Positions 3,463 to 20,043 of a stretch of DNA of 38,061 nt are shown in pieces. Position numbers and translations under genes: made by a program. Origin of the DNA: Pseudomonadota bacterium (GTDB lineage: Bacteria > Desulfobacterota > Desulfobacteria > Desulfobacterales > Desulfobacteraceae); assembly GCA_018821715.1 (NCBI GenBank), contig JAHJLN010000222.1:1-38061 (forward strand), in the 5' to 3' direction. Below the pieces are notes generated by a model that saw only the letters and a list, made by a program, of their open reading frames with translations, was not told the DNA's origin and searched no databases. Position 1 is the first letter of the stretch. Every line of letters starts with the position of its first letter.

Positions 3463-4224
3463 TTGTTTACCACCGCCATCGTTAAAACACCCTGCCGGAA
3501 TATGATCAATGGCATCAGCACGGCAAACTTGGGAAAACCGGATTACGATCTTGCCTTAAAACAGCACAAAACCTATATCCATACGCTGGAAAAATGCGGT
3601 CTTAAGGTGATGGTACTTGATGCGGATGAGATGTTTCCTGATTCAACCTTTATCGAGGATGCCTGCCTGATAACGCCTCGATGTGCCATCCTGACCAATC
3701 CGGGTGATGCTTCAAGAAGAGATGAGCCTCTCCGACTTTCTAAAACCATCCAAGGACTTGGCCTGCCTGTGGAAAGCATTCAAACTCCCGGGACCCTTGA
3801 TGCAGGAGATATTATGATGGTAAAAGATCATTATTTTGCAGGGCTGTCGGATCGAACAAATGCACAAGGCGCTTCACAATTAGAAACAATTTTAAAAAAA
3901 TATGACTACACCTCCTCAACCATTACGCTTGAAAGCGTTCTTCATTTAAAAACCGGAATTTCATATTTGGAAAATAATATGTTGCTTGCCTTTGGAGAAT
4001 TTTTAACAAAACCAGAACTAAAAGGCTTTAATATTTTAAAAGTCGATGCAGATGAGGCCTATGCAGCCAACTCTGTCTGGATCAACGGCAATGTGCTGGT
4101 CCCCAAAGGATTTTTTAAAACAAAAAAGATGATCCAGGATTCGGGATATAGGGTTTTTGAAGTGGATGTATCTGAGTTTCAAAAACTTGATGGCGGGTTA
4201 AGCTGCCTGTCGCTGAGATTTTAA
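3463..4224 (+). CDS. Dimethylarginine dimethylaminohydrolase-like amidinotransferase-fold enzyme
   Basis: This 253-residue protein belongs to the guanidine-modifying (DDAH/arginine deiminase) superfamily. Expected features are visible: FIEDACLI (residues 63-70, acidic pair binding the guanidino group), LDAGDIM (112-118), LSDRTN (128-133), catalytic His161 in VLHLKTG, and the nucleophilic Cys248 in the final LSCLSLRF. The active site therefore looks intact. DDAH enzymes hydrolyse methylated arginines to citrulline plus methylamines; in bacteria some members act on other guanidines. Translation starts at a UUG with AGGAGA at 3451-3456, one base after the transporter stop, and the operon ends at the hairpin at 4241-4280. 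Substrate is inferred only at family level. Confidence 0.85.
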   Translation: MFTTAIVKTPCRNMINGISTANLGKPDYDLALKQHKTYIHTLEKCGLKVMVLDADEMFPDSTFIEDACLITPRCAILTNPGDASRRDEPLRLSKTIQGLGLPVESIQTPGTLDAGDIMMVKDHYFAGLSDRTNAQGASQLETILKKYDYTSSTITLESVLHLKTGISYLENNMLLAFGEFLTKPELKGFNILKVDADEAYAANSVWINGNVLVPKGFFKTKKMIQDSGYRVFEVDVSEFQKLDGGLSCLSLRF

Positions 4225-4240
4225 TAACAGATGGAATTTA

Positions 4241-4280
4241 AAAAAAATGCCGGATATGATGTCATACCCGGCATTTTTTA
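4241..4280. terminator. Bidirectional Rho-independent terminator between convergent genes
   Basis: A nearly perfect hairpin, AAAAATGCCGG...CCGGCATTTTT, with one mismatch and a short loop, is flanked by A-run and T-run. It sits between the convergent DDAH-like and ferredoxin genes and can serve both. Confidence 0.85.
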
Positions 4281-4308
4281 ATTCTATTGCAAGACGTTTG
4301 CTTCTTGC

Positions 4309-4497
4309 TTAATCTTCCTCAACTACAATAGCGTCTTCTTCACAGACTTCAACGCAGCTTTCGCAGCCCATGCATTCTTCAGCATTTACTGGAACGGATT
4401 TGTCATCTTCCATTTCAAAAACTTCTACTGGACACACGTCTACACACTCTTCGCAACCAACACATTTTGATTGATCAACAATTGGATTAAATGCCAT
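4309..4497 (-). CDS. 2[4Fe-4S] bacterial-type ferredoxin
   Basis: The 62-residue protein has two classical cluster motifs, CVGCEECVDVCP (residues 12-23) and CMGCESCVEVCE (about 42-53), and is strongly acidic, as in clostridial and sulfate-reducer ferredoxins. It is a soluble, low-potential electron carrier, probably serving oxidoreductases such as pyruvate or other 2-oxoacid oxidoreductases. The ATG is preceded by a strong AAGGAGG ribosome site. A promoter is seen at 4575-4602, and the gene ends at the shared bidirectional terminator, so it appears monocistronic. Both motifs carry all four cysteines; the final residue after the second is Glu rather than Pro, a common variation. Confidence 0.95.
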   Translation of the reverse strand: MAFNPIVDQSKCVGCEECVDVCPVEVFEMEDDKSVPVNAEECMGCESCVEVCEEDAIVVEED

Positions 4498-4574
4498 TTT
4501 AATAGCCTCCTTAAAAAATTAACAATAGTATATTACAAATTCATTTTTTAAATATTATCTGTATAAAAAACGCT

Positions 4575-4602
4575 TTTATAACATGTCATTAATTAAAATC
4601 AA
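4575..4602 (-). promoter_or_regulatory. Probable sigma-70-type promoter of the ferredoxin gene
   Basis: On the minus strand TTGATT (4597-4602) and TATAAA (4575-4580) are separated by 16 bases, about 80 bases before the ferredoxin ATG. It lies just past the end of the upstream 320-aa gene, consistent with independent transcription of the ferredoxin. Confidence 0.5.
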
Positions 4603-4610
4603 GTTTTTTG

Positions 4611-5573
4611 TCACTTTAATTTGATCAGACATACAGATATCTGTTTGTCTGACATTTTAAAGAGCTTGTTAATAGTATTTCCGGAAAAAAGATACAATTT
4701 AATTTGCCCGGAAAGCGAACATCCATCTTTCACTTGTGGCAAAACATTTTCCCGGTTGCCATTTCCTTGAATTGCACCCATCAGACCATCACAAAACCGA
4801 TGGTGCCATTCATCTTTATTTTCACATTCATTCTCATGCACTTTTATCTTATCGATGTCAAGGGCATTTACAGCATCTTTGCAATTAGACTCAAGATAGT
4901 CAAAAACAGCTGGGCTGGTAGTGATAAACAATGGGCTGTTCCTGTCTTGTTTTGCCCGTTTATTTTGAGCCAGGCACCCTGACCATGCCCTGATCCGTTC
5001 CTGGGTCATCATGGTTCCAGGATCTTTAGTGTCAAAGGTTTTGCTGCCCTGTGCAGCACTCAAGGGATTTTCTAATCCGCGCAAAGCCGACATAAGGGTT
5101 TCTCTATTTTTTTCCAGATCTCTAAGTTCCAAATCTATGCGCTCATTTTGTTCATCACACAATTGCGCCATCTTTAGAAACAATAAATCGTGATGCAAAT
5201 CAGGGGGGGAATCTAACGGCGCAGCTTTTTCATCTTTTATCCCTTTGATCTGTGATCTAATGGCTGCCACATTCGTGTCACTTGTGAAATATGGATTATC
5301 CTTTAAAAGTAATTTAAGGTTTACTTTGTTTCCCCTATGGATTTGAGCCCATTCAAAATATTGTTTGACGGTTTGTTCAACCGATACAAGCGCTTTAGCT
5401 GATGGGAATAATGGATCGATTTTGCCTTGTTCCGCCAATTTTTCCACTGTTTGATGATCCTTAAGATCAGCGCTGACCGGTATATATTGGAATGAGGGAA
5501 AAAAAGTCAAAAGAGTTCTCAACTGGTTTTGGGTAATATGGGTGAAGGGGAAAAATATAAATTGATTTGTCAT
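4611..5573 (-). CDS. Conserved hypothetical protein, translationally coupled to the CysK-CysRS fusion
   Basis: I do not recognise this 320-residue protein. It has no signal peptide or membrane helix. Visible traits are an N-terminal segment rich in aromatic and beta-type residues (FIFFPFTHITQNQLRTLL), a central charged helical stretch around residues 135-175 (QLCDEQNERIDLELRDLEKN), likely coiled coil, and a Cys/His-bearing C-terminal part (CKDAV, NECENKDEWHHRFCDG, DGCSLSG). Its ATG overlaps the stop of the CysK-CysRS fusion (ATGA), with no independent promoter seen, so it is made together with that enzyme. A role beside cysteine metabolism is inferred from this coupling only. Confidence 0.7.
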   Translation of the reverse strand: MTNQFIFFPFTHITQNQLRTLLTFFPSFQYIPVSADLKDHQTVEKLAEQGKIDPLFPSAKALVSVEQTVKQYFEWAQIHRGNKVNLKLLLKDNPYFTSDTNVAAIRSQIKGIKDEKAAPLDSPPDLHHDLLFLKMAQLCDEQNERIDLELRDLEKNRETLMSALRGLENPLSAAQGSKTFDTKDPGTMMTQERIRAWSGCLAQNKRAKQDRNSPLFITTSPAVFDYLESNCKDAVNALDIDKIKVHENECENKDEWHHRFCDGLMGAIQGNGNRENVLPQVKDGCSLSGQIKLYLFSGNTINKLFKMSDKQISVCLIKLK

Positions 5574-7873
5574 GCATCCACCTTTTTGTCATGAACATTA
5601 ACACCTAAAGTGATTAACTGTTCCCGAATTTTATCCGCCAGGTCCCAGTCTTTTTGATGTCGTGCCTGTTCACGTTTTTTCATAAGATCTTGGGCCTTGC
5701 TTGAATATTCCCTTTTTTTATCAAAATTAAAAATCTTGAGAACCGAATCAATTTCTTTAAAGCAGTTCACAAGTCTTTTTGCACCGTCTGGATTGATTTT
5801 GCCCTTATTAATCAACGCATTGATGATTTTGACATTTGCCAGCAATGAAAAAACCACACCGGAAATCTTTAAATCATCTTCCATTGATTGGTGAAATGCT
5901 GATTTTATATCATATAATAGTTGATCCATTCCTTCAAAATCTTTTCCAACCTTAATGGCGCACAAGGTATCAATACATCGGTTGATTTTATTGAGCGTAT
6001 AGTGCGCCTGTTTCAAGGACTGCTCTGATAAAAGCAGGGTTTTTCTATAATGATTGGAAATCAGCCAGAATCGAATCGTTTCAGGCTCCCACCCCTGATT
6101 GAACAAATATTCAAGGGTCAACGCTTCAATATTTTTTGGACCCAGAGAGCCGTCATAATGAACCGGATCACAATGCAGCCAGTACTTTGCAAGGGTTGCC
6201 CCTTTTGCTGCTCTGGCAATGGCAACCTCGTTCTCATGATGGGGGAAAATAAGCTCCCTGCTTCCGGTTTGAATATCAAACGTGTTCCCTAAAAACTTCA
6301 TGGCAATGGCGGCACACTGCAAATGAAGAGAAGGCCGCACATTGCCCCATTGGGTTTTAACGCCCACCCCTCTTTTAAGCTCTGAAAGACGAACCCGTTT
6401 TAACAATGTAAAATCCTTGGGATTGCGTTTTTCATACTCGTCAAGGTCCACGGTTGCCCCAAGTTTAATCTTATCCAGGTTGGTACTGGAAAATTCACCA
6501 TACTCAGGCAGGTTGGCAATATCAAAATAAAGAGAATGCAGTTTTTCATAGGCATGCTGTTTAGATTGAAGCTGTCTGACTATATCAATCATTTCTTCAA
6601 AATGGTCTGATACTTTTGGATAGGCTTCGGCTTTCCTGACATTCAATTTTTCAAGATCATTTTTAAAAAAATCAAAATAAACTTGTGTAAACTCAGGCAG
6701 CGTCATTCCTGCTTTCTGAGACCCCTGTATGGTCTTGTCATCATAATCGGTTATATTGACAACATGATTGACGGCAATGTTGTTATATTCAATGTATCTG
6801 ATGAGCAGATCCGTAAACATATATCTTCTGAACTGACCGATATTGAGTCTTTCATGAACAGTGGGACCGCAGGTATAGACAGATACTTTCCCTTTTTCAA
6901 TGGGTTCAAACCGTATTTTTGATTTTGAAAACGTATTAAACAGGGACAAGGCAATATGGGTATCCACAGCAAACAGATTGGTGGACAGATACCGCTCACC
7001 ACTGTCCGGAAAAATGGCCACAACAATCCCTGTTTTGATCTTTACGGCTTCATCAACGGCAGCCGCCATTGCAGCGCCACTGCTCATTCCCACAAAAAGT
7101 CCCTCTTTTACCGCAAGCTTTCGGGCCATATCAAAGGCTCTGTCATCTTCAATGTTGACTTTTTCATCCAGGCGGTCCTTATCCATGATCTCAGGGGTAT
7201 AGGACTCTTTCATATTCTTAAGTCCCTGGATTTTATGGCCCAGATACGGCTCGGCACAGATAATCCTGATATCCTTGTTGTGTTCTTTTAATCTCCTGGA
7301 AAGCCCCATCAGGGTTCCGCTCGTCCCAATGGTTGCGACCAGTGAAGAAACTTTGCCTTTGGTCTGCTCAATGATTTCAGGCCCGGTGGTGTAATAATGG
7401 GCTTTCCAATTGGCTTCATTATTATACTGGTCCGTTAAAAAATATTTGCCTGGATTTTCTCTGGCAAGCCGGTAGGCTTCCTCAATGGCACCGTCAGATC
7501 CCAGATGTTTGGGGGTTAAAATGATCTGGGCACCCCTTGCACGCAGGATACTTTTGCGCTCTTCACTTGCATTTTCCGCCATGGTCAGTGCAATCTTATA
7601 CCCTTTGACGGCGCAAATCATGGCAAGACCGATACCGGTATTCCCGCTGGTGGCTTCGATAACGGTTTTATCTTTGGTCAATTCGCCGGATTTTTCCGCT
7701 TCGTTGATCATATAGAGCGCTGCTCGATCTTTAACAGAACCGCCGGGGTTCATATATTCAAGCTTGGCAAATATTTTAACTCCCTTTACAGGATTCATCT
7801 TTGTTATTTCAATAATAGGGGTATTACCAATGGAATCAATAATTGAAAATGTCATTTTTTTGCCCTTTGCCAT
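5570..7873 (-). CDS. Cysteine synthase fused to a CysRS-like domain lacking HIGH and KMSKS
   Basis: This 767-residue protein (from ATG 7873; a TTG at 7882 is also possible) joins two enzymes. Residues 7-~312 are an O-acetylserine sulfhydrylase-type PLP enzyme: PLP lysine K48 in GGSVKDR, EATSGNTGIGLA (73-84), GTSGTLMG (183-190), and SSGAA. Residues ~320-767 follow cysteinyl-tRNA synthetase from YTCGPTVH through FPHHENE to the C-terminal helical part (KKREQARHQKDWDLADKIREQL in shortened form). Zinc ligands C335, C520, H545 and E549 are kept. However HIGH is NIGQ (344-347), and where KMSKS should follow the WLHCDPVHYDG strand the sequence is SLGPKN. The usual HGGG before FPHHENE is QTGS. ATP-dependent aminoacylation is therefore doubtful. 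It may be a cysteine- or persulfide-handling enzyme. The downstream gene overlaps by 4 bp. Confidence 0.85.
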   Translation of the reverse strand: MAKGKKMTFSIIDSIGNTPIIEITKMNPVKGVKIFAKLEYMNPGGSVKDRAALYMINEAEKSGELTKDKTVIEATSGNTGIGLAMICAVKGYKIALTMAENASEERKSILRARGAQIILTPKHLGSDGAIEEAYRLARENPGKYFLTDQYNNEANWKAHYYTTGPEIIEQTKGKVSSLVATIGTSGTLMGLSRRLKEHNKDIRIICAEPYLGHKIQGLKNMKESYTPEIMDKDRLDEKVNIEDDRAFDMARKLAVKEGLFVGMSSGAAMAAAVDEAVKIKTGIVVAIFPDSGERYLSTNLFAVDTHIALSLFNTFSKSKIRFEPIEKGKVSVYTCGPTVHERLNIGQFRRYMFTDLLIRYIEYNNIAVNHVVNITDYDDKTIQGSQKAGMTLPEFTQVYFDFFKNDLEKLNVRKAEAYPKVSDHFEEMIDIVRQLQSKQHAYEKLHSLYFDIANLPEYGEFSSTNLDKIKLGATVDLDEYEKRNPKDFTLLKRVRLSELKRGVGVKTQWGNVRPSLHLQCAAIAMKFLGNTFDIQTGSRELIFPHHENEVAIARAAKGATLAKYWLHCDPVHYDGSLGPKNIEALTLEYLFNQGWEPETIRFWLISNHYRKTLLLSEQSLKQAHYTLNKINRCIDTLCAIKVGKDFEGMDQLLYDIKSAFHQSMEDDLKISGVVFSLLANVKIINALINKGKINPDGAKRLVNCFKEIDSVLKIFNFDKKREYSSKAQDLMKKREQARHQKDWDLADKIREQLITLGVNVHDKKVDA

Positions 7874-7901
7874 GGTGAACAATCCAAATCCTATTCTTAA
7901 C

Positions 7902-7931: not shown

Positions 7932-7954
7932 CAGTAATTTTAAACGATGTGCAA
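7926..7954 (-). promoter_or_regulatory. Probable promoter of the CysK-CysRS fusion operon
   Basis: On the minus strand TTGCAC (7949-7954) and TATAAA (7926-7931) are 17 bases apart, upstream of the start at 7873. It faces the lptD promoter and shares the -10 hexamer position with it. Confidence 0.5.
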
Positions 7955-7973
7955 TTTTTTTACTGGAAAGAAC

Positions 7974-10196
7974 ATGTCCTGTTTGTTGAAGAAAAAGTAT
8001 CTGCCGCTTTATGTGGCTGCTGCTTTTTTTTACATATTTATTTCAAGCAAGGGGTTTGCAACCGCGGACGTTCTCCCTCAAAATCCCAAAGAGATTCCCT
8101 GGCATGTCTCTGCCCAGGTTATCACCTATGATAACAAAAGAAATCTTTATATTGCCGAAGACAATGTGGTCATCACCGGCGGTAAAACCCGCCTTGAAGC
8201 CGACTATGCCGAATTTTCAAATAAAACAAAAGATGCGTTTGTGCAAGGCAATGTTCTGTTGATTTCCGGTGAAGACTCCATCTCCTGCAATGCTATGAAT
8301 ATCAATCTTACAACAGAAATCGGCACTATAAATAAAGGCACCATTTACATACAGAAAAATAATTTCTATATTCATGGTGAGAATATCAAAAAGACGGGTA
8401 AATTTTCCTACAGTGCTGACAAAGGGTCCATTACCTCCTGTTCAGGAGAATCTCCGGACTGGAAAATAACAGGAAGAAAAATCAAAGTTACGATTGAAGG
8501 ATACGGAACTGCAACCCATCCGGTTCTATGGGCAAAAAAGGTGCCCGTGGTTTACAGCCCATTTCTCGTCTTCCCTGTTCAAACCAAACGACAGACCGGT
8601 CTTTTAGCCCCAAGACTTACCTCATCTGACCGGAAGGGATTTGAATATGAACAGCCTCTTTTTATTGCAATTTCAAGGAATACGGATGCAACGGTTTATA
8701 CAGATTACATGTCTGACAGGGGAACAAAGATAGGCGCTGAATACAGATATGTTCTGGATAACAAATCAAAGGGTTCCATGATGTTTGATTATCTTGAAGA
8801 TGAAAAAAAAGATGATGGAACTGACAATACAAAACTTTATAGTTTTTCTTCAACGCCTCAAAGAACCAACACGGATCGATTCTGGTTCAGGATGAAACAC
8901 AACCAGGATCTTCCCCAGGAGTTTACAGCCAAGCTGGATATTGACGTGGTCAGTGATGAAGATTACCTTCAAGAGTTTCAAGACGGATTTACAGGATTTA
9001 ATGCAACCCAGGAATATTTTGAAAAAGAATTCGGCAGAAGCCTTGATGCATATGACAACACAATCCGTAAAAACTGGCTGAATATCAGCAAATCATGGTC
9101 TACTTACACCTTTAATGTTGATGCTCTTTGGTATGATAATATCACTGCCCGTCGCCAGGATATTGATGATACAACCTTACAGACACTTCCAAGCATTCAA
9201 TTTGATGCGTCCAAACATCAAATCGGTCCTTCACGCTTTTATTATGCTCTTGATTCCGAGTATCGATCCTTCTACAGGCAGGATACAACAACAACGCTTG
9301 TGAACGGGCAGCGGGCAGATATCTATCCCAAAGTTTTTCTGCCGTTAAAACTTGGCAAATTTTTTAATTTTGAACCATCAATCGGCTTAAGAGAAACCAT
9401 ATGGTATGCCGATGATTTTACAGATATTAACGGCAATTCAGACAGCTTTCGAACAAGAGAGATGTATGATATCGGTGCGACGTTATCCACAAAACTGATC
9501 CAAATATTTAATCCTGACAATTCATTTGCAGATAAAATCAAACACGAAATCATCCCGGAACTTGGATATGTTTTCACACCATATATCAGCCAGGATGAAT
9601 TGCCTTCCTTTGATTCTATAGATAGAATTGCGGAACAAAACCTGGTCACCTGGTCTCTTACGAATTATTTTATTTCAAGGAAAGTCGGCAAAACACCAAC
9701 AGGAGAAGAAAAATTAACCTATCATGAATTTGCTTATGCTAAAATTTACCAAAGTTATGATATCAAAAAAGAAAGAGACAATGATCCAAAACCGTTTTCA
9801 AGCATTTTCCTTGATACGGAACTGAATCCAAATACCTTTATCTCATTTGATGTGGACCTTTCCTGGTCTCCCTATGGCAATAACTTTCAAACCATGAACA
9901 TTGGAAACACTTTGAAAGATAACAGAGGGGATTCTTTAAGGACGGAATATCGGTACACCGAAAATATATCAGAAACCTTGTATTCAAAAATTGATGTGTG
10001 TTTGACCGATGAATTATCAGCATATTACTCGATTGAAAGAAATCTAAAAGAAAAGAAAACAGTGGAAAACCAGGCCGGACTTGCCCTGGTAAAATCCTGT
10101 TGGAGCATCAATCTTTATTTCTCAGAATCAGGGGGCGAAAAGAGTATCGCCTTTCTGATAAATCTTCATGGAATCGGAGAGTTCGGCACAAAATGA
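7974..10196 (+). CDS. lptD: LPS-assembly outer-membrane protein LptD
   Basis: The 740-residue protein (from ATG 7974, chosen because GGAAAG lies at 7965-7970 and gives a clean signal peptide; an upstream ATG at 7947 has no ribosome site) starts with a basic n-region and hydrophobic core ending near FATA-D. An OstA/LptA-like beta-jellyroll follows (about residues 40-150: VSAQVITYDNKRNLYIAEDNVVITGG), then a long stretch of amphipathic strands with frequent Tyr/Phe (about 190-740), the LptD barrel, including the family segment PVVYSPFLVFPVQTKRQTGLL in part. It inserts lipopolysaccharide into the outer leaflet together with LptE. The stop overlaps the start of a NusG-like gene, an unusual partner. 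Confidence 0.9.
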   Translation: MSCLLKKKYLPLYVAAAFFYIFISSKGFATADVLPQNPKEIPWHVSAQVITYDNKRNLYIAEDNVVITGGKTRLEADYAEFSNKTKDAFVQGNVLLISGEDSISCNAMNINLTTEIGTINKGTIYIQKNNFYIHGENIKKTGKFSYSADKGSITSCSGESPDWKITGRKIKVTIEGYGTATHPVLWAKKVPVVYSPFLVFPVQTKRQTGLLAPRLTSSDRKGFEYEQPLFIAISRNTDATVYTDYMSDRGTKIGAEYRYVLDNKSKGSMMFDYLEDEKKDDGTDNTKLYSFSSTPQRTNTDRFWFRMKHNQDLPQEFTAKLDIDVVSDEDYLQEFQDGFTGFNATQEYFEKEFGRSLDAYDNTIRKNWLNISKSWSTYTFNVDALWYDNITARRQDIDDTTLQTLPSIQFDASKHQIGPSRFYYALDSEYRSFYRQDTTTTLVNGQRADIYPKVFLPLKLGKFFNFEPSIGLRETIWYADDFTDINGNSDSFRTREMYDIGATLSTKLIQIFNPDNSFADKIKHEIIPELGYVFTPYISQDELPSFDSIDRIAEQNLVTWSLTNYFISRKVGKTPTGEEKLTYHEFAYAKIYQSYDIKKERDNDPKPFSSIFLDTELNPNTFISFDVDLSWSPYGNNFQTMNIGNTLKDNRGDSLRTEYRYTENISETLYSKIDVCLTDELSAYYSIERNLKEKKTVENQAGLALVKSCWSINLYFSESGGEKSIAFLINLHGIGEFGTK

Positions 10197-10717
10197 TGGA
10201 ACAATTAAACTGGTTTGCGCTTCTGACAAGAAGCAACTTTGAGCAAACAGTGCATACGAGTATTGTTAATAAAAAAATTGAGGCCTTTCTGCCCAGAATA
10301 AAGCGTAAAAGCAAACGCAAAGATAGAAGTCTCATGATAGAAGTTCCGCTTTTTCCGGGATATCTTTTTGTGAAATCAACCTTTGAACCAGCAGACCAGC
10401 TGAATATTTTAAAAACCACCGGCGCGGTCAGACTATTGGGCAATCAGACAGGACCCGTACCTGTACCTGTGTCACAGATTGAGTCCTTGAGAATCCTGAC
10501 CAGTACGAATATGGATCTGGTTACAGGGGCAAATATCCTTTTAAAAACAGGAGACCTTGTTATGATTTTAGAAGGCCCCCTGGCAGGGGTAAAAGGGGAA
10601 TTTACAAGATATAAAGGCAAAGGACGGGTGGTGATTAAAATCGATGCATTAGGCCAATATGCAGGGGTTGAAGTCCAAGAAGAGAATATTGAAAAAATCT
10701 CTAGCCTATTGTCATAA
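10193..10717 (+). CDS. NusG-family specialised antitermination protein (RfaH/LoaP/UpxY-like)
   Basis: From the tandem ATG at 10193/10196 this is a ~174-residue NusG paralogue. The NGN domain covers residues ~5-105: NWFALLTRSNFEQTV at the start, FLPRIKRK, and VPLFPGYLFVKS, the classical NGN signature. A KOW motif follows near residues 120-150 (LLKTGDLVMILEGPLAGVKG). Such paralogues bind RNA polymerase and act on chosen operons, usually large cell-surface ones. The start overlaps the lptD stop (ATGA), so translation is coupled; GGAGAG lies just upstream. The housekeeping nusG normally sits with secE and rplKA, so this copy is a specialised one. Its targets are unknown; control of envelope polysaccharide operons is the inference. 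Confidence 0.82.
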   Translation: MMEQLNWFALLTRSNFEQTVHTSIVNKKIEAFLPRIKRKSKRKDRSLMIEVPLFPGYLFVKSTFEPADQLNILKTTGAVRLLGNQTGPVPVPVSQIESLRILTSTNMDLVTGANILLKTGDLVMILEGPLAGVKGEFTRYKGKGRVVIKIDALGQYAGVEVQEENIEKISSLLS

Positions 10718-16344: not shown

Positions 16345-19300
16345 ATGATTCTGAAAAGAAAACCTTTTTTTTATTGGATGAAAAAAATATTTTCAATCCC
16401 TGTTGAATTCGGAAAATCAATAGCTCAGGCAAAAGAAAATACCATCATATTCTTCCCCTATCAATCCAACACCTTGTCATGCGGGATTTCAGCATTTGTA
16501 GCATTTAAAGGCAGTACAACACAGCAAAATTTTGATTTAAACCAGCTTCAAACAATGGTTCTTTTGTTAAAAGAAAAATGCCTGCCTGCTGATGACCTCT
16601 CCATCCAGAACGATTATCTGGGCGGAGATGATTTTTTAAACCAGGTTTTTGATCAATGCCAGGGACTCAAACAGGAAACTCTTTTTTCCGATCTGTTTTT
16701 CAACACAGATAATAAAGAACAGCTTTCTTTAATTGCAGACGATCTGGAACAATTCATTCTTGGCCAGACCCATGTCTTTAAAAAAGAGGTCTCCAATATT
16801 CCCTCCCTGGATGTTGACATCATTTCCCGTCGCCTTGAAAAGCTTGAAGATATCTGCTGGTGTATTAAAAAGGAAATCTTAGATAACATCACTGCCATTG
16901 GCAATCTTGCACTTGGCCTTGAGAATTCCGGCAACATACAGGGATTAAACGTATTCAAAAGAATAAATGCCGTGTTGAACAGCATTGACCGGCTTGAAGT
17001 CAGGGGAAGGGATTCTGCAGGAATATCCGTTATTTTCACCTTTACCAAACCTGAATTTGAAAACTTCAGGGAGGGCCTTATAAAGGCCGGACTTTCGGAA
17101 AGGTTAAAACAAAGAACAAATCACCTGGTGCTCTCCAATAACAGCCTTACGATCAATGATACCTTTCCGGAAAACGCAGATCATCTGGTAACCATTTCTC
17201 TGGTGTATAAATTTGCTGCTGAAATCGGTGCGCTGGGAGACAATGTATCCTTTATCAGAAGCCAGATTAAAAATGATCTCATGCTTCAATTGCTGACCCA
17301 TTATCCATTTGTTGCCAATTCCGTATCTGCCCACACAAGATGGGCTTCTGTGGGAGACATCACTGTGGCCAACTGCCACCCCCAGGACAACACCCCTACA
17401 GACAAGGAAATCGGAAAAACAGGCATTATTCATGTCTGCCTGAATGGAGATATTGACAATTATCTTGAATTAAAAACAGAGTATGAAGCAAGATATGATA
17501 AGATCCATGAAGATATTAATACAGACACCAAACTGATCCCGCTACAGATTGAGCACTACCTGAAACAAAATCATCCTATTGAAGAGTCTTTCAGGCTGGC
17601 TGTCAATGACTTTGAAGGCTCCCACGCCATCAGCATGCACGCAGATCTTGCTCCTGGAAAATTATTTCTTGCCCAGAAAGGCAGCGGCCAGGCCATTTTT
17701 GTCGGAATTGCCAAAGACCATTATATTGCCGCTTCCGAACTCTATGGGATTGTCGAAGAAACTCAGGATTATATCAAGCTCAATGGAGAAAACCGTGGCC
17801 AGATTGTCATTCTTGATCAGAATTCTTCTGGTGGTGTATCAGGAATTAGATCTTTCTACTATGATAACACGCCCATCGACATCGGAGAAGACAAGGTGCT
17901 GACAAGCAAAATTACGTCCCGGGACATTGACAGACAAAACTTTCCCCACTATTTTTTAAAAGAAATTTCAGAATCTCCGAACTCGGTTGAAAAAACCCTG
18001 GAAAACAAAGTCAAACTATCTCCCAAAACGATGTTTTTTACTACAAATCTTGATGAGACGGTGATTCCAAAATCTTTGGAAGATGATTTTAAAAACAACC
18101 GGATCAAAAAGGTCTGTTTTATCGGACAAGGCACTGCAGGAGTTGCCGCTCAAGGCTGTGCCGACTTGTTAAACTTCTATCTGGGTGATAAGGATATCGA
18201 TATCAGAGCCTATAAATCATCAGAGCTTTCCGGGTTCAGTATTGTTGAAGGGAAGAAAGGTCAGGACACCATGGCCAATACCCTTGTTATTGCCATCAGC
18301 CAGTCCGGAACAACAACCGATACCAACCGGACCGTTGACATGGTGAAAGCCTGTGGTGCCAAAACTCTGGCCATTGTGAACAGGAGGGATTCCGATCTGA
18401 CCTTTAAGACTGACGGTGTTCTGTATACCAGTTCCGGCAGGGATATAGAAATGTCTGTTGCCTCAACAAAAGCATTTTATTCGCAGCTGACTGCCGGCGC
18501 TATCTTAGGTCTTCACATTGCAGGACTGGCTCAAACAAGATCAGCTGATTTTATTACGGAACAGGTCAACGAAATTATGAGCCTGCCGGATAAGATGAGA
18601 ACCATTCTTGGAATGAAAGATCAAATCAAAGACTCTGCTTTTCGGCTTGCCGTATCAAAACATTATTGGGCAACCGTCGGATCAGGGTCAAACAAAACTT
18701 CTGCTGATGAGATCAGGATCAAACTCAGTGAACTCTGCTATAAAACCATTTCCTCTGACTTTATTGAAGATAAAAAACATATTGACCTGTCAAGTGAACC
18801 CTTAATCATCATTTGTGCTGCCGGAACAAGGGAAAGCGTATTGGGGGATATCATAAAGGATACAGCTATTTTCCATGCGCACAAGGCAACGCCTGTGGTC
18901 ATCACCACCATTGGAGAGGACCGGTTCGATCTTTATGCCAAAGATGTTTTCAAAATCCCGGAAGTAAAGGAGCATTTTGCCCCTATCCTGAATACGCTTG
19001 TCGGACACATATGGGGGTATTATGCAGCCCTTGCCATCAATGAGGGGTCCAGGTTCATGTATGAAGGAAGGGCCGAAGTTCAGGATCTTTTAGATGAATA
19101 CACCGCCATGGGACATGATGTATATGAAGTTCTCCTGGAAAAAAAATTCAGGGAAACCATTGCTCTGTTTTATAACAAATTTTCAAAAAAAAGACGGCAA
19201 GGCGGATTTCCTGCTGCCATGGGACTTGACAATGTGGCCAATATCACCTTGCTGCTGAAATATCTGTCCGGCAGATTGCCGGTGTCGGATTTTGAAATTG

Positions 19301-20043
19301 ATTTTGAGACAAAGGGCACCCCTTCCAACATGCTGCAAACCTTTTTTGATAACATCGGCCATGCCATCAACACTATGGCAAGACCGGTTGATGCCATCAA
19401 ACATCAGGCCAAAACCGTTACGGTCGGCACCAGCAGAATCAGTGAAAAGTTTGAAGGTATTGTCTTTGATGAACTTGCTGCCAATAAAATTCAAATCTCC
19501 CAGATTACCAATAAAAATGTCCTGGTCATCAGGAACCTTCAGGAGGTTATCTCCATCATCAATGGTGCTTTTCTTTACCAGATATCGGGATTGAGCCTTT
19601 TGGGCGAAGTTACCCGAGAAACCAAAATAAAAATAGTAAATAAAACCGGAGCGTTAAAAGATGAGCCGTCAAGGATTGAAACAGATCCCAGACTTAAGGG
19701 AACTAAAAATATCATTGTCAGGGAAGGAAATGTATATATTGGGAAAGGCAGGAAAGACAACAAGAACATCCTGGTCATCCCGGTCATTTCTTCAAATCCT
19801 GCCACACCCAACATTATTGAGTATATTCTGTCCTTGAATATCAGCTTTAAAACATCAAATGAGGTACCGCTCTTAAAAAAGATCAAAGCCCTTGGCGGCA
19901 AGTACAACCGGCTCAAAGACTGGATACTTGAAAGTGATAACTTACAATGGGATGACAAATATCTTAACCTTATAGAAGTTGAGACTCTGTTTGGGGATAC
20001 AGCAGAAACAGTTGTTGAAAAGATTCTTGAAAAAATGAAATAA
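16345..20043 (+). CDS. Giant GlmS-like amidotransferase/SIS protein (1232 aa)
   Basis: This protein is twice the length of GlmS (~610 residues). The glutaminase half has CGISAFVAF (Cys46), VRGRDSAGI (219-227), HTRWASVGD (330-338), LNGDIDNY (366-373) and TDTKLIP (393-399), so its catalytic and glutamine-binding residues look conserved. About 150 extra residues lie between Cys46 and RGRDSAGI. Two SIS domains follow: CFIGQGTAGVAAQG and ISQSGTTTDT...STKAF (591-711), then a second with KLSELCYKTISSDFIEDKKH. After the second SIS (ending near GYYAALAINEG) there is a ~200-residue extension. The nucleophilic Cys is not at the N-terminus, which Ntn amidotransferases require, so removal of a 45-residue propeptide or loss of glutaminase activity must be considered. 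GGAGG precedes the ATG. Product and substrate are unknown. Confidence 0.8.
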   Translation: MILKRKPFFYWMKKIFSIPVEFGKSIAQAKENTIIFFPYQSNTLSCGISAFVAFKGSTTQQNFDLNQLQTMVLLLKEKCLPADDLSIQNDYLGGDDFLNQVFDQCQGLKQETLFSDLFFNTDNKEQLSLIADDLEQFILGQTHVFKKEVSNIPSLDVDIISRRLEKLEDICWCIKKEILDNITAIGNLALGLENSGNIQGLNVFKRINAVLNSIDRLEVRGRDSAGISVIFTFTKPEFENFREGLIKAGLSERLKQRTNHLVLSNNSLTINDTFPENADHLVTISLVYKFAAEIGALGDNVSFIRSQIKNDLMLQLLTHYPFVANSVSAHTRWASVGDITVANCHPQDNTPTDKEIGKTGIIHVCLNGDIDNYLELKTEYEARYDKIHEDINTDTKLIPLQIEHYLKQNHPIEESFRLAVNDFEGSHAISMHADLAPGKLFLAQKGSGQAIFVGIAKDHYIAASELYGIVEETQDYIKLNGENRGQIVILDQNSSGGVSGIRSFYYDNTPIDIGEDKVLTSKITSRDIDRQNFPHYFLKEISESPNSVEKTLENKVKLSPKTMFFTTNLDETVIPKSLEDDFKNNRIKKVCFIGQGTAGVAAQGCADLLNFYLGDKDIDIRAYKSSELSGFSIVEGKKGQDTMANTLVIAISQSGTTTDTNRTVDMVKACGAKTLAIVNRRDSDLTFKTDGVLYTSSGRDIEMSVASTKAFYSQLTAGAILGLHIAGLAQTRSADFITEQVNEIMSLPDKMRTILGMKDQIKDSAFRLAVSKHYWATVGSGSNKTSADEIRIKLSELCYKTISSDFIEDKKHIDLSSEPLIIICAAGTRESVLGDIIKDTAIFHAHKATPVVITTIGEDRFDLYAKDVFKIPEVKEHFAPILNTLVGHIWGYYAALAINEGSRFMYEGRAEVQDLLDEYTAMGHDVYEVLLEKKFRETIALFYNKFSKKRRQGGFPAAMGLDNVANITLLLKYLSGRLPVSDFEIDFETKGTPSNMLQTFFDNIGHAINTMARPVDAIKHQAKTVTVGTSRISEKFEGIVFDELAANKIQISQITNKNVLVIRNLQEVISIINGAFLYQISGLSLLGEVTRETKIKIVNKTGALKDEPSRIETDPRLKGTKNIIVREGNVYIGKGRKDNKNILVIPVISSNPATPNIIEYILSLNISFKTSNEVPLLKKIKALGGKYNRLKDWILESDNLQWDDKYLNLIEVETLFGDTAETVVEKILEKMK

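Follow-up and report, generated by a model that had tools for sequence, protein, structure and literature searches.

What would a bacterium gain from a cysteine synthase that carries, in the same polypeptide chain, a domain resembling cysteinyl-tRNA synthetase (CysRS) whose catalytic motifs have decayed? The question is raised by a gene in contig JAHJLN010000222.1 of the assembly GCA_018821715.1, deposited as a Pseudomonadota bacterium and placed by GTDB in the Desulfobacteraceae (Desulfobacterota). We analysed positions 1 to 38,061 of this contig, a stretch called the window hereafter, in which the fusion gene lies on the reverse strand (5570..7882). A preliminary description of the same DNA proposed that an intact pyridoxal phosphate (PLP) enzyme is joined there to a synthetase domain that has kept its zinc site and has taken on a new role, namely cysteine channelling, persulfide formation or sensing. 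The conservation of this domain among relatives leads us to an answer in which it would read tRNA-Cys without charging it.

The fusion gene and its cysteine synthase half

The gene encodes 770 amino acids when read from a TTG, and 761 when read from the ATG at 7853-7855 (M10), which is the likelier start because the frames of close relatives such as L006, L009 and L078 open one codon ahead of the equivalent methionine. Residue numbers are counted here from the TTG; those of the preliminary description were counted from M4 (nucleotide 7873), so that its K48, C335, C520, H545 and E549 are our K51, C338, C523, H548 and E552. Residues 13-304 form the cysteine synthase half, a PLP enzyme of the CysM/CysK type (6971..7846, on the reverse strand like all parts of the gene; TIGR01136, PF00291). 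Residues 312-767 form the CysRS-like half (5582..6949), which matches PF01406 (E 8.6e-74), PF23493 (CysS_C, anticodon-binding) and, below its cut-off, TIGR00435; translation confirmed the coordinates given here for each part. The fusion is not due to chance, since it is a single open frame with high domain scores that is conserved in relatives. The AlphaFold model predicted for the protein is good inside the domains (mean pLDDT 86.3): its N-terminal part matches the folds of cysteine synthases (Z about 35) and its C-terminal part those of CysRS (Z about 49). Among the latter is the tRNA-Cys-bound structure 1U0B, with Z 49.0 over 438 residues at 3.2 A.

The comparisons that follow rest on an alignment from which identical rows and domains of 380 amino acids or fewer were dropped (246 of 266 rows kept). 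Counts over 132 fusions include two rows cut by contig ends (L050 and L083); the comparison of 129 fusions with 113 canonical CysRS omits these two and L192 on one side, and the mislabelled L024 on the other; the alignment of 126 fusions omits L050, L083, L169, L188, L192 and L259. Many rows are close relatives, which makes the counts made on a thinned tree fairer.

The cysteine synthase half scores 363.7 bits on TIGR01136 (cysKM), above the cut-off of 344.15; the cut-offs of the narrower cysK and cysM equivalogs are not reached, and the closest solved chains are those of cysteine synthase B (2v03, 2bhs and 2jc3). The PLP lysine K51 (7730..7732), the SGNT loop that holds the cofactor (S79-G80-N81-T82, 7637..7648), and the PLP-site residues G186-T187, G189-T190, G265 and S267 are conserved in all of the 126 aligned fusions. 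Judging from these residues, the PLP active site of the fusion is intact, as had been proposed, and the half is probably an active enzyme. It is also the better conserved of the two, with a mean pairwise identity of 66% over the 126 fusions, versus 47% for the CysRS-like half. A loop of the CysM type holds a lysine, K222, in 126 of 126 fusions, at a position where the fragment of Mycobacterium tuberculosis CysM that we compared has an arginine. The CysM of Escherichia coli has an arginine there too, and K222 does not decide between O-acetylserine and O-phosphoserine as the substrate, nor between sulfide and thiosulfate.

Decay of the catalytic motifs and of the zinc site

In the window protein the HIGH motif is eroded to NIGQ (N347-I-G-Q350, 6833..6844) and KMSKS is gone: the place of the lost loop, at about residues 580-584 (LGPKN, 6131..6145), reads GSLGPKNIE. 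Both changes had been seen in the preliminary description, which called for a search for other fusions and an alignment of these motifs. That search shows that the decay has occurred repeatedly in the family. From the canonical enzymes to the fusions, retention falls from 1.00 to 0.40 for H37, from 1.00 to 0.69 for G39, from 1.00 to 0.33 for M267 and from 0.99 to 0.03 for K269; for S270 it falls from 0.97 to 0.18 if gaps are counted, or to 0.43 if they are not. H37 is present in 113 of the 114 rows initially taken as canonical, and the exception (L024) is in fact a fusion cut by the end of its contig. A HIGH-like motif (H37, G39 and H or N at position 40) remains in 6 of 132 fusions. Where the KMSKS loop used to be, two fusions (L223 and L224, from genomes G026 and G080) carry long serine- and glutamate-rich insertions.

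The window protein scores 322.4 bits on TIGR00435 (cysS), below the cut-off of 340. Many distant fusions exceed this cut-off, and genome annotation could mistake them for tRNA ligases.

Five further residues that are conserved throughout the class of enzymes, R168, W184, W194, G201 and Q241, are altered in nearly all fusions (Q241 goes from 1.00 to 0.00 and W184 from 0.99 to 0.00). They are altered even in the members whose motifs are nearly intact (HLGN and KMSRS), which suggests that the change of function goes back to the family's ancestor. Conversely, two arginines are new and nearly invariant in the CysRS-like half, R353 and R496 (0.98 and 0.99 of 129 fusions). The former belongs to a signature of the family, R352-R353 (6824..6829), whose residues are present in 132 and 130 of 132 fusions, respectively; the canonical enzymes have R in the first of these columns and mostly S, P, T or A in the second. 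Taken together, the substitutions indicate that the CysRS-like half has very probably lost its ATP chemistry.

The four zinc ligands are all present in the window protein, as had been claimed; the claim does not extend to the family, in which the full set is found in only 100 of 132 fusions, and in 32 of the 51 fusions of the thinned tree. C338 (E. coli C28, 6869..6871) is kept in 121 of 132 fusions, C523 (C209, 6314..6316) in 124, H548 (H234, 6239..6241) in 131 and E552 (E238, 6227..6229) in 106. Moreover, the cysteine pocket of the window protein is altered, with L519, E543 and Q538 in place of W205, D229 and H224. The binding of cysteine thiolate to zinc, which the preliminary description put forward, is not supported as the shared role of these proteins, because ligands have been lost in several lineages (the thinned tree requires 6 changes or more) and because the pocket is altered in the window's own lineage.

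The anticodon-reading residues are constant

The part of the CysRS-like half that does not vary had been overlooked: in the sequences compared, it is the set of residues expected to read the anticodon. In the CysRS of E. coli, Arg427, Asp436, Trp432 and, through a water molecule, Arg423 contact G34 of the tRNA (Hauenstein et al. 2004, 1U0B, as quoted in PMC12684709). The corresponding element of the window protein comprises R737, R741, W746, D750, R753 and D765 (5588..5674), which align with E. coli R423, R427, W432, D436, R439 and D451. All of the 128 fusions that have data there (129 rows, one of which has a gap) carry R at position 423, D at 436, R at 439 and D at 451. Of the same 128, 125 have R and 3 have K at position 427, and position 432 is always aromatic.

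These residues are constant also where zinc ligands, HIGH and KMSKS have been lost. All six positions are intact in the 16 members that we inspected, most of which lack at least one zinc ligand. The thinned tree, with its 51 fusions, requires a minimum of 12 changes for H37, 6 for the complete zinc site and 5 for a motif resembling KMSKS (scored over four columns, 266-269), and 0 for the anticodon set (50 fusions with data). Since the anticodon-reading residues were kept while HIGH, KMSKS and zinc ligands decayed, the weight moves away from the ideas based on zinc and cysteine, or on persulfide, that had been put forward.

Distribution, genomic context of the function, and selection

The fusion is widespread. 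In a sample of the class, 130 of 147 genomes match the CysRS-like query at E 1e-90, and in a sample of the phylum 74 of 198 genomes match it at E 1e-80; the two samples overlap and each includes the genome of the window. The matching frames are nearly all about 700-930 amino acids long and hence are fusions; a few are shortened by contig ends and two frames exceed 1,200 amino acids. Among the close relatives, 49 of 58 match at E 1e-80 or better. The named members include metagenome-assembled genomes of Desulfobacula, Desulforapulum autotrophicum, Desulfocapsa and Candidatus Desulfobulbus rimicarensis, and the family belongs to a large group of mostly sulfur-metabolising bacteria. Among 80 loci listed from a wider set of matches, nine have the RR signature (L078-L086) and are of the Desulfobacterota type; distant fusions may hide among the matches that look canonical. 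In a tree of 95 rows, the fusions form one group with a support of 100, and the lone "canonical" row inside it is the contig-cut fusion L024. This tree is of a quick kind, with 40 of 92 inner branches left open and 12 rows of unusual composition.

In the genome of the window, contig C390 carries another cysS, of the canonical type, in which HIGH and KMSKS are present. This rules out that the fusion is the sole cysS, a situation that would have refuted the preliminary interpretation. Of 40 genomes with the fusion that were tested, 39 likewise have a full separate cysS; in the remaining one, the second gene is a fragment at a contig end. As for cysteine synthesis, contig C114 of the same genome carries a canonical cysK (440.8 bits, above the cut-off) after a gene resembling that of serine acetyltransferase, cysE (157.3 bits, the cut-off for cysE being 210.65, a value that is not reached in any of the 58 related genomes either). 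A third match resembling cysteine synthase (C433, 7628-8311) is below the cut-off and has one internal stop, and a weak fourth is found on C184.

Both halves are under purifying selection, as judged from the substitutions between relatives. The dN/dS of the CysRS-like half is 0.06-0.20 (the 40 closest of 82 pairs), which rules out a pseudogene or a decaying remnant. An assembly artefact or a contamination (the estimate for this genome is 5.85%) is ruled out as well, since genomes of the same genus contain the same fusion, with identities over the full domain that reach 82%. Selection thus keeps a fusion of synthetase and synthase across much of the phylum, in a form that has shed the chemistry and kept the anticodon-reading residues.

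Several genomes contain further variants. One genome of the same genus (contig G002:C239) carries, in addition to the usual fusion, a divergent one at 39% identity (L225 and L258), and two matches are also found in each of G096, G108 and G111. Among the 80 loci listed above, a further long frame, of 810 amino acids (L118), has a canonical CysRS without any PLP motif in front. Two other genomes, G195 and G232, carry a different CysRS (L256, positions 3963-6188, and L257) in addition to a canonical cysS and the fusion; that of L256 has HLGN and KMAKS, and a C-terminal glycosyltransferase family 2 domain according to a Pfam run made on L256 only.

What the CysRS-like half may do

Because the ATP chemistry of the synthetase domain is very probably lost beside a separate canonical cysS, the proposal of a new role for this domain holds. 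The function that we tentatively favour, at somewhat short of an even chance, is that of a cysteine synthase with a permanent, non-charging CysRS paralogue which reads tRNA-Cys and regulates or positions the synthase. The cysteine synthase half would be the working part, and the CysRS-like half would bind tRNA-Cys through the anticodon without charging it. The occupancy of this domain, possibly by uncharged tRNA-Cys under cysteine shortage, would switch or position the attached synthase, and the outcome would be a cysteine supply that tracks the demand of translation. The logic would resemble the way in which HisZ acts on HisG, or in which the kinase of Gcn2 responds to its HisRS-like domain, here within one covalent chain. 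In the window's lineage, the zinc-cysteine pocket may add sensing of the product. The earlier idea of sensing comes near this reading, with tRNA-Cys being the more likely ligand. If the protein is indeed a sensor of tRNA-Cys, it would make a direct protein link between translation and the synthesis of an amino acid, with no transcription in between, in bacteria of the sulfur cycle.

Several observations weigh against this reading. Part of the conservation of the anticodon residues may have structural reasons: of 69 columns that are conserved to at least 95% in canonical CysRS, 29 are kept to at least 97% in the fusions, and that all four tail columns which qualify (R423, D436, R439 and D451; R427 falls below the cut-off of this test) are among them has a probability of P = 0.027 by random choice. 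Of these four, R423 and D436 are documented contacts of G34; R439 and D451 are not documented as contacts in the source consulted. Besides, a few lineages retain HLGN and KMSRS, and some activity is possible there because both motifs are nearly kept. The arrangement of the two domains is uncertain in the predicted model (pTM 0.62). Last, the need to control the synthase of the fusion is not obvious, because the genome has another, canonical cysK.

In the window's own lineage, the main rival is a sensor of cysteine or thiol, in which the product, bound at the zinc site, would exert feedback on the synthase half, and tRNA would play no part. We give this explanation a minor but real chance. The window protein has the four zinc ligands as well as T378, the site is complete in the majority of fusions as counted above, and HisZ mediates the inhibition of HisG by histidine (PMC9437257). 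However, several lineages have lost zinc ligands and yet keep the anticodon residues, the window protein has L519 for W205 and E543 for D229, and the retention of the anticodon-binding tail is left unexplained. A tether would account for that tail: the domain would gather tRNA-Cys, and perhaps the canonical CysRS, near freshly made cysteine, without any allosteric control. This fits the retention of the anticodon residues, the loss of the catalytic motifs and the covalent link to a producer of cysteine, but a small diffusible product would gain little from such a hand-off, and the contact with the canonical CysRS is without support here. We regard the tether as unlikely.

The remaining explanations ask for chemistry on the CysRS-like half or on its tRNA. 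In the boldest of the readings, this half may hold a tRNA-Cys bearing an aminoacyl group of the seryl type and present its 3' end to the PLP half, which would swap the oxygen of the side chain for sulfur to give Cys-tRNA-Cys, as a bacterial analogue of SepCysS that works without SepRS. The joining of a PLP enzyme of the beta-replacement type to a reader of the tRNA-Cys type, and the nearly invariant new arginines R353 and R496, speak for it. We nevertheless find it improbable: the active site of cysteine synthases normally takes free amino acids, a canonical CysRS is present, and no match in the 58 related genomes reaches the cut-off of TIGR00470 (O-phosphoseryl-tRNA synthetase), the weak matches being mostly frames of about 340 amino acids that are probably the alpha subunit of PheRS. 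The production of persulfide is highly improbable. The formation of cysteine persulfide with PLP has been reported for CysRS proteins, and the lysines reported to bind PLP are those of 73-KIIK-76 and 266-KMSK-269 (PMC10655014); K73 is retained in the window protein (K383), whose closest named relatives among the matches listed are bacteria of the Desulfobacula type. Against this, K76 is replaced by Q386 and K266 by L580, and K583 stands in the column of K269 in a loop whose alignment is uncertain; among 129 fusions of the family, 3% retain K269 and 64% retain K73, which weakens the proposal made in the preliminary description. That the protein still charges tRNA-Cys, with unusual motifs, is the least probable of the explanations weighed here. 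The fold of CysRS is intact in the predicted model, some distant members have HLGN and KMSRS, and many are over the cysS cut-off; the window protein, on the contrary, lacks both histidines of HIGH as well as KMSKS and scores below that cut-off, in a genome which also has a canonical cysS.

The neighbourhood of the fusion gene

The gene that follows the fusion (4611..5573, reverse strand, 320 amino acids) overlaps it by 4 nucleotides and is proposed as its partner. Its product has no NCBIfam match, and no Pfam match up to E 1. The corresponding protein cluster is encoded directly 3' of the fusion in the window and in 17 of 20 loci of the class (L058-L077); it is found in 21 of the 54 loci that were clustered, and its profile matches 80 of 275 loci, many of which are repeats from the same genus or overlapping. 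The protein is weakly conserved (an FPFT start, a W, and the patterns FL..A..D and R..W), and its predicted model, made from 4 sequences, is poor (mean pLDDT 40.7).

On the other side, the fusion gene adjoins a divergent lptD in the window and in near relatives. In many other loci of the class, genes that resemble surE, yhaM and tmk on visual inspection of their translations are upstream of the fusion. Rfam gives 0 matches at the gathering score in the window, and therefore no T-box-like leader over the threshold; a tRNA scan of the window also gives 0 matches. Elsewhere in the window, the longest frame of a gene of the NusG type (10100-10717, forward strand) overlaps the end of the LptD gene (7947-10196), and a frame of 1232 amino acids (16345-20043, forward strand) has a SIS domain and matches to glutamine amidotransferase that are just below the cut-offs.

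Comparison with known systems

We found no description of this fusion in the open-access literature, in a search that was limited to papers under an open licence. Table 1 of PMC9437257 has only CysRS* and MshC as paralogues of CysRS. Repurposed paralogues of synthetases are already known, also in the synthesis of the cognate amino acid; what sets this one apart is its fusion with the very enzyme that produces that amino acid.

Regarding the halves taken separately, the PLP half resembles CysM and CysK, with a score over the TIGR01136 cut-off and all key residues, and differs from them in being fused to a CysRS-like domain. MshC is likewise a CysRS paralogue in a non-translational role (its fold matches the model of the window protein with Z 45), and it apparently works without tRNA (PMC2922099). 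The fusion is not an MshC, since it scores 161.9 bits on the MshC model versus a cut-off of 485.1 bits. It is rather the reverse of it: MshC matches the CysRS profile only to position 326 of 459, which leaves out the anticodon region, whereas in the fusion catalysis is probably lost and the anticodon residues are kept. CysRS* is another noncanonical CysRS in related bacteria. That of Desulfobacterales is devoid of the anticodon-binding domain, is active and charges a SelC-like tRNA (PMC9437257); the fusion, in contrast, keeps the anticodon-binding domain and is without the catalytic motifs.

The SepRS/SepCysS pathway uses families of PLP enzyme and synthetase that differ from those of the fusion, and its SepRS has no counterpart above the cut-off in the 58 relatives. 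It is nonetheless a case in which the formation of cysteine by a PLP enzyme is linked to tRNA-Cys (PMC5424206).

HisZ is a HisRS paralogue without adenylation activity that serves, as we propose for the fusion, the biosynthesis of its own amino acid, by mediating the inhibition of HisG by histidine (PMC9437257). HisZ is a separate subunit, whereas here a class I synthetase, CysRS, has become part of a single chain and retains the anticodon-reading tail. A fused arrangement is found in Gcn2, in which a HisRS-like domain that is dead for charging is joined to an effector and is thought to read uncharged tRNA. The effector of Gcn2 is a eukaryotic protein kinase, whereas that of the fusion makes the cognate amino acid. 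By analogy, HisZ is the closest precedent in amino-acid synthesis, and Gcn2 the closest for the putative reading of uncharged tRNA.

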